Positions 6,591 through 60,423 of a stretch of 64,000 nt of DNA are shown here, one piece after another. The notes under the pieces were generated by a model that saw only the letters and a list, made by a program, of their open reading frames with translations, ran no database searches and had not been told where the DNA came from. The position numbers and the translations under genes were made by a program. Every line of letters begins with the position of its first letter. Position 1 is the first letter of the stretch. The stretch lies in contig JANLHN010000003.1 of NCBI GenBank assembly GCA_024654505.1, positions 293,037 through 357,036 of the forward strand, given 5' to 3'. This DNA comes from Nanobdellota archaeon (GTDB lineage Archaea > Nanobdellota > Nanobdellia > Pacearchaeales > GW2011-AR1).

Positions 6591-6697
6591 TTGTTAATAC
6601 CCTTAACAGATATTATTATTTAAATGTTTGGAGATTATTGTTAAGCCTTCTCCTCAACCTTAGGTCTGCAAGAATCTTTCTTCTAATTTATTCAGAC

Positions 6698-6916
6698 CTA
6701 AGCTTTCGTCCCACACTCTGGGCAGAATTTTTCTCCACCTTCTAGACCCCAATTACATTTCTGACATCTTCTTATATCGGTTTTTTCTTCTAAAATTGCC
6801 TCATAGTCGTTCCTTCCTGAGAGAATCTTCCCCATAATTTTCTTTATCTTATCTTGCTCTTCCCCTTTTTGTTGAAATCTTGTTAAATCAAATCCTTCCA
6901 TAGTGTTTGCTTGCAA
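6698..6916 (-). CDS. Small zinc-ribbon protein
   Basis: C-terminal CQKCNWGLEGGEKFCPECG. Confidence 0.6.
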   Translation of the reverse strand: MQANTMEGFDLTRFQQKGEEQDKIKKIMGKILSGRNDYEAILEEKTDIRRCQKCNWGLEGGEKFCPECGTKA

Positions 6917-7262: not shown

Positions 7263-7388
7263 GATGTGCCTCCGTAGCTCAGTTGATAAAGTACGATTAG
7301 AAATCGTTCATGCATCTCCTGAGCTGATGTGCCTCCGTAGCTCAGTTGATAAAGTACGATTAGAAATCGTTCATGCATCTCCTGAGCT
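7263..7388 (+). repeat. Two tandem 63-bp copies of the tRNA-Thr 5' end, each with a long hairpin replacing the D-loop
   Basis: Units at 7263 and 7326, then real tRNA context at 7389; AGCTCAG...CTGAGCT inverted repeat with inner ACGATT aga AATCGT. Confidence 0.9.
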
Positions 7389-7393
7389 GATGT

Positions 7394-10464: not shown

Positions 10465-10517
10465 TTTGAATTTATGATAAATGGAAACTCGAAACAATTT
10501 ATTGTTACTTTTTTCAT
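10461..10517 (-). CDS. uORF2, 18 aa ([18 protein letters not shown]), stop overlaps copA ATG
   Basis: ATGA overlap with copA start; part of 53-bp tandem repeat. Confidence 0.4.
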
Positions 10518-10570
10518 TTTGAGTATATGATAAATGGAAACTCGAAACAATTTATTGTTACTTTTTTCAT
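10514..10570 (-). CDS. uORF1, 18 aa ([18 protein letters not shown]), stop overlaps uORF2 ATG
   Basis: ATGA overlap; repeat copy. Confidence 0.4.
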
Positions 10571-17550: not shown

Positions 17551-17642
17551 TGGGAGGAGGATTCTGCTCACAATTCACTCTTGAGAATATTTTATTTAGT
17601 TCAAGAGCAAATTGCTCGACCCCCGTTACGGGGCTTCGCTCA
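17551..17642 (-). repeat. Partial 3'-end copy of tRNA-Leu split by a hairpin element at the T-loop
   Basis: CGGGGGT[CGAGCAATTTGC...GAATTGTGAGCA]GAATCCTCCTCCC on the tRNA strand. Confidence 0.8.
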
Positions 17643-18997: not shown

Positions 18998-19255
18998 TTG
19001 ATGCTTTGGGAAGACTTATTTATTATGATTGCCACCATCTTGCTTAGTTATGCCCTCGTTCCGCAAGTAATTTATGGTTTCAAAAAGAAAAAGAAATTTG
19101 TTGTTATACAGACTTCCTTATTGACTACAATTGGTCTTTTGATGCTTACAATTTCTTATATTTCTTTAGAACTTCCTTTAGCCCTTATCTCCAATTCGGT
19201 TGCCGTGATATTGTGGATGTTGATTCTTATTCAAGGAAGTATATATAAAGAATAG
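18998..19255 (+). CDS. SemiSWEET/PQ-loop-like small membrane protein
   Basis: ALVPQVIYGFKKK and three TMs. Confidence 0.6.
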   Translation: MMLWEDLFIMIATILLSYALVPQVIYGFKKKKKFVVIQTSLLTTIGLLMLTISYISLELPLALISNSVAVILWMLILIQGSIYKE

Positions 19256-19356
19256 CGAGAGGTGGATTTGGCTTCGTGTCAAAGACACTCGCTGCACGGA
19301 ATCTTGCTAACGCAAATTCATCCAAACCATGACTGGTTCAAATCTAAAACTATTAA
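19253..19356 (-). repeat. Partial 3'-end copy of tRNA-Met with internal hairpin insert
   Basis: CAAATCCACCTCTCGCTA copy; insert has CGTGTCaaaGACACTCG hairpin (+ strand). Confidence 0.75.
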
Positions 19357-25170: not shown

Positions 25171-25295
25171 AATAAAAAGTAACACCAAAGGTGTTTCATG
25201 TTTATACCCTTTGGCAATAAAAAGTAATGTCAGAGACATTGCATATTTATTTCGCAAGCGAAATAAAAAGAACAGGAATTAAAAATAAAATTCCA
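25171..25295. repeat. Hairpin array: three units headed AATAAAAAG, each with different perfect stems
   Basis: AACACCaaaGGTGTT, AATGTCagaGACATT, ATTTCGCaaGCGAAAT, GGAATT..AATTCC. Confidence 0.8.
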
Positions 25296-42771: not shown

Positions 42772-42883
42772 TGGCCCCGAGGGGATTTGAACTATTCGCA
42801 ATTTGCATTGTCAATTATATTTTAATTTGTTGAAAAAGCGAATTGCTCACCCCGACAGTCGTGTGTTCAAATCCTAAAAAATA
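42772..42883 (-). repeat. Partial 3'-end copy of tRNA-Lys split by hairpin element at the T-arm
   Basis: GTCGGGG[TGAGCAATTCGC...GCAAATTGCGAATA]GTTCAAATCCCCTCGGGGCCA. Confidence 0.9.
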
Positions 42884-42957: not shown

Positions 42958-43014
42958 ATAGGCATCCTCTACTCTGACACTCGGTCGAAGAACCTCGCGT
43001 AGAGCTACGGAGCC
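42958..43014 (-). repeat. Partial 5'-end copy of tRNA-Lys with hairpin replacing the D-loop
   Basis: GGCTCCGTAGCTCTAC...GTAGAGG upstream of the real gene. Confidence 0.85.
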
Positions 43015-59243: not shown

Positions 59244-59597
59244 TAGCCCTGCCAGTGCTCGCAATTTGCATTTGCAGGATTTTTATCATTTTGTGCAAAA
59301 GCGAATTGTTCGTCGAACCTCCAGGTTCTCATCCTGATAGCCCCGCCGGCTCACGTTCAGGTCTGCGATTATCTGTTTTATTTGTCCTTGCTCGCGATTT
59401 GCATTTGCTCAAGATAATGGGATTAAATCCGCAAAAGCGAATCGTTCGACCTAAACGTTCGGGATTCGATTTCGAATTCTGGAAATAGCCCCGCCAGTGC
59501 TCGCAATTTGCATCTCGCAATCAGAGGTCTACTTATTGGATTTCTATTAGATTGCTCAAAGCGAATTGTTCGTCGAACCTCCAGGTTCTCATCCTGA
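59244..59597 (-). repeat. Three successive partial 3'-end copies of tRNA-Gln, each with a hairpin element at the T-loop
   Basis: TAGCCC(C/T)GCC at 59244, 59338, 59486; inserts CGAACAATTCGC...GCAAATTGCGAGCA. Confidence 0.9.
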
Positions 59598-59670
59598 TAG
59601 CCCCGCCAGGATTCGAACCTGGGTCGCAGCCTCCAGAGGGCCGCATCCTTGACCACTAGACTACGGGGCT
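59598..59670 (-). tRNA. tRNA-Gln (anticodon CTG)
   Basis: AGCCCCG/CGGGGCT acceptor stem, CGGCC CTCTGGA GGCTG anticodon arm, CCAGGTTCGAATCCTGG T-arm. Confidence 0.92.
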
Positions 59671-59730
59671 AGTGTTTTTGCCACGTTGTCTTCTTGGAAC
59701 AGCTATGCTGTTACCTTAGACTACGGGGCT
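59671..59730 (-). repeat. Partial 5'-end copy of tRNA-Gln with nested hairpin replacing the D-loop
   Basis: AGCCCCGTAGTCTAAGGTAACAGCataGCTGTTCCAAGAAGAC. Confidence 0.85.
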
Positions 59731-59797: not shown

Positions 59798-60304
59798 ATG
59801 AACATTAAGGCGACATTAATTTCGGAGAAGGTTAGTTCTAACTCTGTTGAGGCACGAAATCTTTTTGCTAGTCAGATGTTTGGAGAAGAGGTTGGAGAGA
59901 AGATTTTTTATTCTTTAGTTGAGGCTTTTTATTTAGTTGAAAAAGGTCAAATGGAGCTCCTTGATTTTAGAGATAAAAAGTTGTCTTCTTCTGAGATTTC
60001 AAGACGTTTTGAAAGTATTGATAAAAAGTTTAAAGTAAAATATATTGTCTTTAAGGATCTTCGAAAGAGAGGATATATTGTAAAGACTGCCTTAAAATTT
60101 GGAGCGGAGTTTAGGGTTTACGAAAAGAATTCAAAACATTCTAAATGGATTCTTTTCCCCGTATCGGAGAATAATCAAATGACTTGGCAGGATTTCTCGG
60201 CAAAAAATAGGGTTGCACATTCTACAAAGAAAAATCTCTTAATTGCAGTTGTTGATGAAGAATGTGACGTTTCTTATTATGAGGTCAAATGGACTCAACC
60301 ATAG
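59798..60304 (+). CDS. endA: tRNA-splicing endonuclease
   Basis: YIVFKDLRKRGYIVKTALKFGAEFRVY, HSKWILFPV, RVAHSTKK. Confidence 0.93.
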   Translation: MNIKATLISEKVSSNSVEARNLFASQMFGEEVGEKIFYSLVEAFYLVEKGQMELLDFRDKKLSSSEISRRFESIDKKFKVKYIVFKDLRKRGYIVKTALKFGAEFRVYEKNSKHSKWILFPVSENNQMTWQDFSAKNRVAHSTKKNLLIAVVDEECDVSYYEVKWTQP

Positions 60305-60423
60305 CATGCCCCAACCTAACCTTGAATGTATTGGTGAGGGTATAGCATGCCCCAACCTAACCTTGAATGTATCAGTGAGGGTATAGCATGCCCCAACCTA
60401 ACTTAGAATATATCTGTGAGGGT
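60301..60423. repeat. Three tandem 41-bp repeats (ATAGCATGCCCCAACCTAACCTTGAATGTATTGGTGAGGGT)
   Basis: Units at 60301, 60342, 60383. Confidence 0.95.

Follow-up and report, generated by a model that had tools for sequence, protein, structure and literature searches.

What are the partial tRNA copies and hairpins that surround the tRNA-Gln(CTG) gene of this Nanobdellota archaeon, and how did they get there? The initial annotation of the window, by which we mean the whole 64,000-nucleotide stretch of DNA analyzed here, had described the gene as bracketed by four partial self-copies, each carrying a hairpin insert at the T-loop or D-loop. These copies and inserts are real, consisting of a 14-nt 5' copy with a D-loop hairpin and of three 3' copies. 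We detected the hairpins with two covariance models, R1 for the T-loop family (S3) and R2 for the D-loop family (S5), for which a noisy regular-expression scan for YGAR stems was dropped. We chose the R1 and R2 alignments from the units and structured them ourselves, so E-values are not independent for the sequences used in training. The features of the locus (59244-59730), from the outer 5' copy to the outermost 3' copy, are as follows.

59717..59730, minus strand: tRNA-Gln nt 1-14 as an outer copy, which is the original gene start (exact repeat)
59692..59716, minus strand: S5 hairpin in the D-loop of the 5' copy (R2 match, 46 bits, E 1.7e-9)
59680..59691, minus strand: imperfect antisense of the tRNA-Gln 5' arm, nt 13-2 (predicted pairing with the 5' copy, z -4.97)
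59598..59670, minus strand: intact tRNA-Gln(CTG) (ARAGORN; Rfam RF00005, 61.3 bits)
59581..59588, minus strand: antisense of the T-arm, GAACCTGG, directly past tRNA-Gln (sequence and group statistics)
59573..59580, minus strand: sense copy of the 5' side of the tRNA-Gln T-arm, AGGTTCGA (sequence and group statistics)
59500..59572, minus strand: S3 hairpin of 3' unit 1, enclosing a further hairpin (covariance model R1, 48 bits, E 6e-7)
59486..59497, minus strand: 3'-end copy 1, CTGGCGGGGCTA (sequence)
59350..59461, minus strand: outer hairpin of 3' unit 2, CGAACGTTTAGGTC...GACCTGAACGTGAG (aligned with the uninterrupted form at tRNA-Gln(TTG))
59391..59448, minus strand: nested S3 hairpin of 3' unit 2, inside the outer one (R1, 43.4 bits)
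59338..59349, minus strand: 3'-end copy 2, CCGGCGGGGCTA (sequence)
59258..59312, minus strand: S3 hairpin of 3' unit 3 (R1, 50.3 bits, E 1.9e-7)
59244..59255, minus strand: 3'-end copy 3, the outermost, CTGGCAGGGCTA (sequence)

As a chance control, we examined 210 random 500-bp places, of which 2 contained a 14-nt 3'-end copy with at most three mismatches. Upon DNA folding, the 5' unit is far more stable than its shuffles (z -4.97), while the three T-loop inserts are individually unexceptional (z -0.36 to -1.70), so that the evidence for hairpins at the latter is covariation across copies. Copies 1 and 3 are close relatives, as had been proposed, but the second, previously taken for a diverged version, consists of two hairpins, one nested in the other. 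This nested S3 is missing, in an alignment, from the homologous uninterrupted site at tRNA-Gln(TTG) in the same genome. The antisense tRNA piece found in each unit was absent from the initial annotation. Some 630 bp upstream of tRNA-Gln(CTG), a 41-bp unit, ATAGCATGCCCCAACCTAACCTTGAATGTATTGGTGAGGGT, is tandemly repeated (window 60301-60410; C2:353337-353446).

The tRNA-Lys, tRNA-Leu, tRNA-Met, and tRNA-Thr loci of the window carry units built on the same plan.

7268..7393, plus strand: a pair of identical 5' units ahead of tRNA-Thr(CGT), each 63 bp long and consisting of nt 1-21, an S5, and a complement of the D-stem (R2 at 7285-7318 and 7348-7381)
17551..17564, minus strand: decayed tRNA-Leu 3'-end copy, GAATCCTCCTCCCA (sequence)
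17567..17618, minus strand: S3 hairpin after tRNA-Leu(TAA) (model R1, 54.3 bits)
19253..19270, minus strand: tRNA-Met(CAT) 3'-end copy, behind a hairpin of another class (sequence)
42772..42792, minus strand: tRNA-Lys 3'-end copy (sequence)
42795..42849, minus strand: S3 hairpin of the tRNA-Lys 3' unit (model R1, 46.1 bits)
43002..43014, minus strand: tRNA-Lys(TTT) 5' copy, followed by a hairpin (sequence)

The inserts beside tRNA-Lys, tRNA-Leu, and tRNA-Gln, whose common ends had been noticed before, do form one covariance family, and the list of affected sites has grown, with units also at tRNA-Met, tRNA-Thr, and the 5' side of tRNA-Lys. The tRNA-Leu insert is, as folded DNA, much stabler than its shuffles (z -3.72). 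When the window was scanned with Rfam 15, only four tRNAs reached the cut-off, and the units matched no known RNA family. Hairpins of both families also occur in the window away from tRNAs. Two tandem S5 lie at the start codon of a small protein gene (window 10482-10567; C2:303518-303603) whose protein start resembles a metal-binding domain and whose start region, TCAAAATGAAAAAAGTAA, is present three times. Two consecutive S5-like hairpins are intergenic, with no tRNA nearby (window 25173-25252; C2:318209-318288). On the minus strand, an S3 overlaps the stop codon of a protein gene, GGGACGAAAGCTTAGGTC... (window 6653-6708; C2:299689-299744), and is the sole strong S3 match of the genome away from tRNAs.

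How widespread are these units? We surveyed nearly the whole genome, here called G000 (620,782 bases, 13 contigs, 42 tRNAs), looking for self-copies with 12-nt seeds and at most one mismatch at the 40 tRNAs whose flanks were complete. Of these, 30 have one or more partial self-copies, with a 5' copy at 20 and a 3' copy at 20, and a control in which flanks were swapped between isotypes gave 7 matches in 788 trials (~1%). Four further genomes of the genus have self-copies at 13/22, 11/24, 10/37, and 18/36 tRNAs, the swapped flanks of the genus genomes giving 28 matches in 3161 trials (5' and 3' summed). Within the same family, the counts are 8/18 in G043, 4/17 in G070, and 2/18 in G107; G022, which belongs to another family of the order, has self-copies at 0/15 tRNAs. 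Of the 95 close direct repeats in G000, 49 are located less than 250 bp from a tRNA. At the level of the order, S3 (E 0.001) is present in 25 of 207 genomes, which include 15 of the 16 of this genus, and is also abundant in G070, G071, and G107, while S5 (E 0.0001) is present in 12 of 207, all from this genus. The named S3-bearing records are labeled Candidatus Pacearchaeota, Nanoarchaeota archaeon, or uncultured archaeon. Scanning the genome and its relatives with the covariance models, as had been suggested, thus reveals similar elements beside many other tRNAs. As a separate observation, tRNA-Glu(CTC) of G000 (C2:57472-57669) is 198 nt long with a predicted 125-nt intron, and its 5' copy (nt 1-29) contains an S3 in inverted orientation.

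The two hairpin families are well defined. In an alignment of 41 sequences, S3 displays YGAR on both sides of the stem base; G2, A3, and the A on the 3' side never vary and the G on that side is kept in 39 of 41, which gives a tandem G-A mismatch. A kink-turn at this position was rejected since its geometry failed by hand, and the tandem G-A mismatch fits. All 12 stem pairs of S3 show changes on both sides, with a covariation score reached by no shuffle. S5 is organized as AAAGTAAC-stem-GTTTCATGA, and 9 of its 10 pairs covary (two-sided changes in 52 cells, one-sided changes in 4). G.T and A.C mismatches number 16 vs 10 in S3 outside the internal loop and 4 vs 3 in S5, and such similar numbers may hint, weakly, at a DNA palindrome rather than an RNA stem.

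Which copy is the original gene end? Among 136 tRNAs that lack a 5' unit, 86 have a TATA-like box 28-45 nt ahead of the gene. Of the 32 with such a unit, 23 carry a box at this distance ahead of the first 5' copy, and only 2 ahead of the intact tRNA. This spacing fits the outer 5' copy, not the intact tRNA, and the outer 5' copy is therefore the old gene start. At the 3' end, tRNA-Trp is empty in G000 and has inserts of ~100 bp, with three different hairpins, in G001, G002, and G015. In an unguided alignment, the G000 T-arm matches the distal copy of the three other genomes, after which come the shared downstream promoter and start codon. Consequently, the old gene end survives as the outer 3' copy, and it is the intact tRNA that bears a re-made end. 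Offsets at other tRNAs look similar. With the outer copies original on both sides, the unit was inserted in a tRNA loop and the lost end supplied again, and one intact tRNA is left at each site.

The hairpins are found at other kinds of sites as well. In G000, S3 has 29 matches (E<0.01), of which 28 are within 300 bp of a tRNA, two of these being inverted; this agrees with the earlier view of an element family at tRNA loops and not random pseudogenes. S5 has 26 matches (E<0.01), 15 in tRNA 5' copies, 1 nested in a 3' unit, and 10 elsewhere, most of these last at the TATA box or start codon of a protein gene, and several of them are flanked by copies of the gene's own start (for instance, 27-bp repeats at C2:230502, 25-bp repeats at C3:7891, and start-codon copies at C2:303488-303594). 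In other genera, S3 copies are intergenic, inverted in T-loop copies (L245 and L249), or in tandem (L254 and L256). In G070 (L248:1310-1380), an in-frame S3 adds 21 residues near the N terminus of an IleRS-like protein. Strict targeting of tRNA loops, as originally envisaged, is thus not supported. Some S3 insertions outside tRNAs show no obvious duplication. Occurrence at varied sites, in both orientations, nested, in tandem, and in coding DNA is, by the usual comparative criteria, the signature of a mobile palindromic element, and it is therefore well supported, as far as sequence comparison goes, that the hairpins are dispersed elements of this kind. Viral contigs searched with exact S3 and S5 patterns gave no match, and none contained relatives of the S3-interrupted IleRS.

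One of these sites bears on a different interpretation. In G107 (L255:1120-1262, minus strand), S3 fills the anticodon loop of tRNA-Leu(CAA), the usual place of archaeal tRNA introns, as would be expected if the hairpins were bulge-helix-bulge (BHB) introns that had reached other tRNA positions. We consider this very unlikely because it is a single case, the standard BHB motif, with its two 3-nt bulges flanking a 4-bp helix where exon and intron join, could not be fitted by hand, the stem base is a tandem G-A mismatch and not two 3-nt bulges, and splicing of S3 would make the re-made tRNA ends needless.

The 5' units sit between promoter and tRNA and are thus probably transcribed as a leader. 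Together with the covarying stems and the orientation of most copies, which is that of the tRNA, this would suit functional RNAs, namely structured pre-tRNA leaders or trailers that are under selection for processing or regulation. Such a role strikes us as improbable, and RNA function as the main explanation was discarded in view of the mismatch ratio, the high turnover (from 10/37 to 30/40 tRNAs inside one genus), and the inverted copies in T-loops. Moreover, the elements are found also away from tRNAs, and in the predicted fold of the Gln transcript the real 5' arm is taken up by the antisense piece, a pairing that would impair the tRNA. The latter pairing also made us reject the antisense piece as a guard against tRNA misfolding. 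As for the units being terminators, T-runs are alike after tRNAs with units (12/64) and without (20/101), and this idea was abandoned.

The anatomy of the units is constant. They measure 55-110 bp and are gene-free, the 5' copies stopping at nt 14-16, in the D-loop, and the 3' copies beginning at about nt 57, in the T-loop. A 5' unit reads sense nt 1-15, D-loop hairpin, antisense nt 13-1, short linker, and intact tRNA. In a 3' unit, the intact tRNA is followed by a short trailer, then by roughly nt 56-44 in antisense, roughly nt 44-53 in sense, the T-loop hairpin, and finally sense nt 57-73. To quantify the antisense pieces, we compared the match to the unit's own tRNA with that to other isotypes. 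The own-tRNA antisense exceeds the 95th percentile of other isotypes in 22/32 of the 5' units (control segments 2/32) and in 11/64 of the 3' units (control segments 4/64), in which the sense T-stem does so in 29/64. By these percentiles, own-tRNA antisense is firmly shown in 5' units and only partly in 3' units. Several unrelated hairpin classes occupy the same tRNA sites with one architecture, those at tRNA-Met and tRNA-Phe being further examples besides S3 and S5. In G043, tRNA-Cys and tRNA-Gly(GCC) (L301 and L313) have a common T-loop insert of a different class, with three hairpins in a row.

This anatomy invites comparison with known insertion enzymes. An integrase or transposase could, in the manner of Cas1 or a casposase, duplicate a long stretch of target on inserting the hairpin and so restore the gene end, the antisense piece arising later or by hairpin repair. 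The repeat-insert-repeat order, with repeats of ~13-36 bp at tRNAs, TATA boxes, and start codons, is in line with this, and the tRNA 3' end is a known target of casposase-type enzymes. We nevertheless regard it as unlikely. The duplication length at unit sites varies, from ~13 to 36 bp, and is not constant as for Cas1-made duplications. A plain target duplication yields no antisense target copy, yet most 5' units have one, and there are nested and tandem S3 without a duplication of such length.

Integration of larger elements is the usual origin of archaeal partial tRNA copies (PMC9897764), and the units could in principle be scars of a phage or plasmid, or else an assembly artefact. Like these units, tRNA-integrated phages, plasmids, and islands are flanked by a partial copy and, at the opposite border, by a complete gene whose end has been resupplied (PMC9897764), and such restoration is seen here in the tRNA-Trp alignment and the promoter positions. 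However, integrated elements in Thermococcaceae measure ~9-23 kb (PMC9897764) versus 55-110 bp, and large elements have an attachment site for one tRNA (PMC9897764), whereas here ~30 tRNAs are each matched by their own end; an integrase of their own and a single tRNA-specific attachment site are both absent from the units. Random deletion remnants cannot explain hairpins that are conserved and covary, nor an architecture that stays constant at tens of tRNAs, 5' ends included, and the same structure recurs in independently deposited assemblies, which speaks against the artefact that had earlier been named as a concern. We therefore hold either origin to be extremely unlikely.

The reading that we prefer, at roughly even confidence, is that palindromic DNA mini-elements of the tiny, uncultured Pacearchaeota enter the D- and T-loops of tRNA genes and that in the surviving insertions the gene end has been re-made by fold-back. 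A hairpin mini-element would land in the D-loop or T-loop and break the tRNA gene; alternatively, the process would start with a break in the loop, repaired by fold-back synthesis that rebuilds the gene end. The short lost end (nt 1-15 or nt 57-73) would be made anew across the element, along with a short antisense stretch copied from the adjoining arm. Fold-back, that is, hairpin-primed, synthesis with two template switches could produce the sense-antisense-sense order. The intact tRNA would then combine old sequence with the re-made end, the outer copy and hairpin would represent the interrupted original end, and selection would retain loci with one intact tRNA. Short insertions templated by fold-back are known at DNA breaks in yeast, mostly as local inverted duplications of 5-34 bp that arise via microhomology (PMC11724301). 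It is this precedent, together with the sense-antisense-sense order, that makes us favor insertion or breakage in a loop with fold-back rebuilding, although the yeast insertions are repair at induced breaks, with neither a conserved hairpin nor a link to tRNA ends (PMC11724301). At each site, the re-made end and the antisense piece match the very tRNA that was hit; they must therefore be copied from the target and cannot travel with the element.

We infer that the hairpins move as DNA, that a fold-back step and enzymes performing it would be involved, and that insertion and fold-back synthesis would be one coupled event. The choice between a miniature mobile element and a structure-driven duplication, left undecided in the initial annotation, seems to dissolve, both being apparently needed together rather than either alone. 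A bolder version is that a target-templated fold-back insertion itself rebuilds the gene end, sense and antisense, allowing entry to tRNAs, TATA boxes, and start codons, which we put forward as a tentative possibility. Some S3 outside tRNAs lack an obvious duplication, so re-copying may be a selected accompaniment and not part of the mechanism. It also counts against the preferred explanation that one element alone does not account for several unrelated classes sharing an architecture, that the antisense signal of 3' units is weak (11/64), and that the incomplete G000 has no match to Y1_Tnp or RVT_1.

As for the enzymes, Y1_Tnp (PF01797), the HUH transposase that would mobilize REP or MITE elements of the IS200/IS605 type, has no match in the element-bearing G000, G002, G003, G005, G015, and G107, all incomplete, and is present in others, while RVT_1 has no match in the incomplete G000 and several element-bearing relatives; in assemblies that are incomplete, an enzyme gene may have been missed. 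Phage_integrase is found in nearly all genomes tested. None of the three tracks element abundance, and they were set aside as the linked enzyme. A tyrosine recombinase domain, in a 417-residue frame, is encoded in G000 (C2:104040-104525) ~550 bp downstream of tRNA-Glu(TTC), which has no unit.

Short, gene-free palindromes in several families are known from small genomes, as Rickettsia palindromic elements (RPE) and CGTC/GTAG palindromes (PMC3733652, in the part drawn on here), which likewise lie between genes and in frame in protein genes. The dispersed family of short palindromes without a gene is shared (29 R1 and 26 R2 matches, E<0.01), and the in-frame coding insertion has one clear case in a relative, the IleRS-like protein at L248. 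In contrast, the units differ in sequence, are archaeal and in this genus mostly at tRNAs, and have a re-copied tRNA end and antisense piece, which the same part of PMC3733652 does not describe for RPE. The constant CGTC/GTAG end tag is absent, S3 ending in GAGTA, GAGCA, or similar, and S5 differing in sequence. Hairpin elements of sponge mitochondrial DNA are also repetitive, scattered, and of divergent families, some being in frame in coding genes, but lie mainly in long intergenic regions, and gene-end restoration is not described in the portion of PMC2800124 used here. Archaeal group I introns, present in Pacearchaeota rRNA genes, are a different thing (PMC6125680). The open-licence full-text literature yielded no description of this arrangement, an absence that is no proof of novelty.

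It has long been asked how gene-free palindromes of 50-100 bp move. The sequence of a tRNA is fully known and many junctions are preserved here, so the chemistry of insertion can be read from the junctions. Many tRNA fragments in these genomes are accounted for by the units, with no need to invoke phage integration, and the units appear to represent a hitherto undescribed means by which a mini-element lodges in essential genes and leaves them functional. Target-templated fold-back insertion, if true, would be a new mode of DNA insertion, one in which the cell survives entry into its essential genes, and the loci illustrate how very small genomes can break, and then rebuild, such genes.
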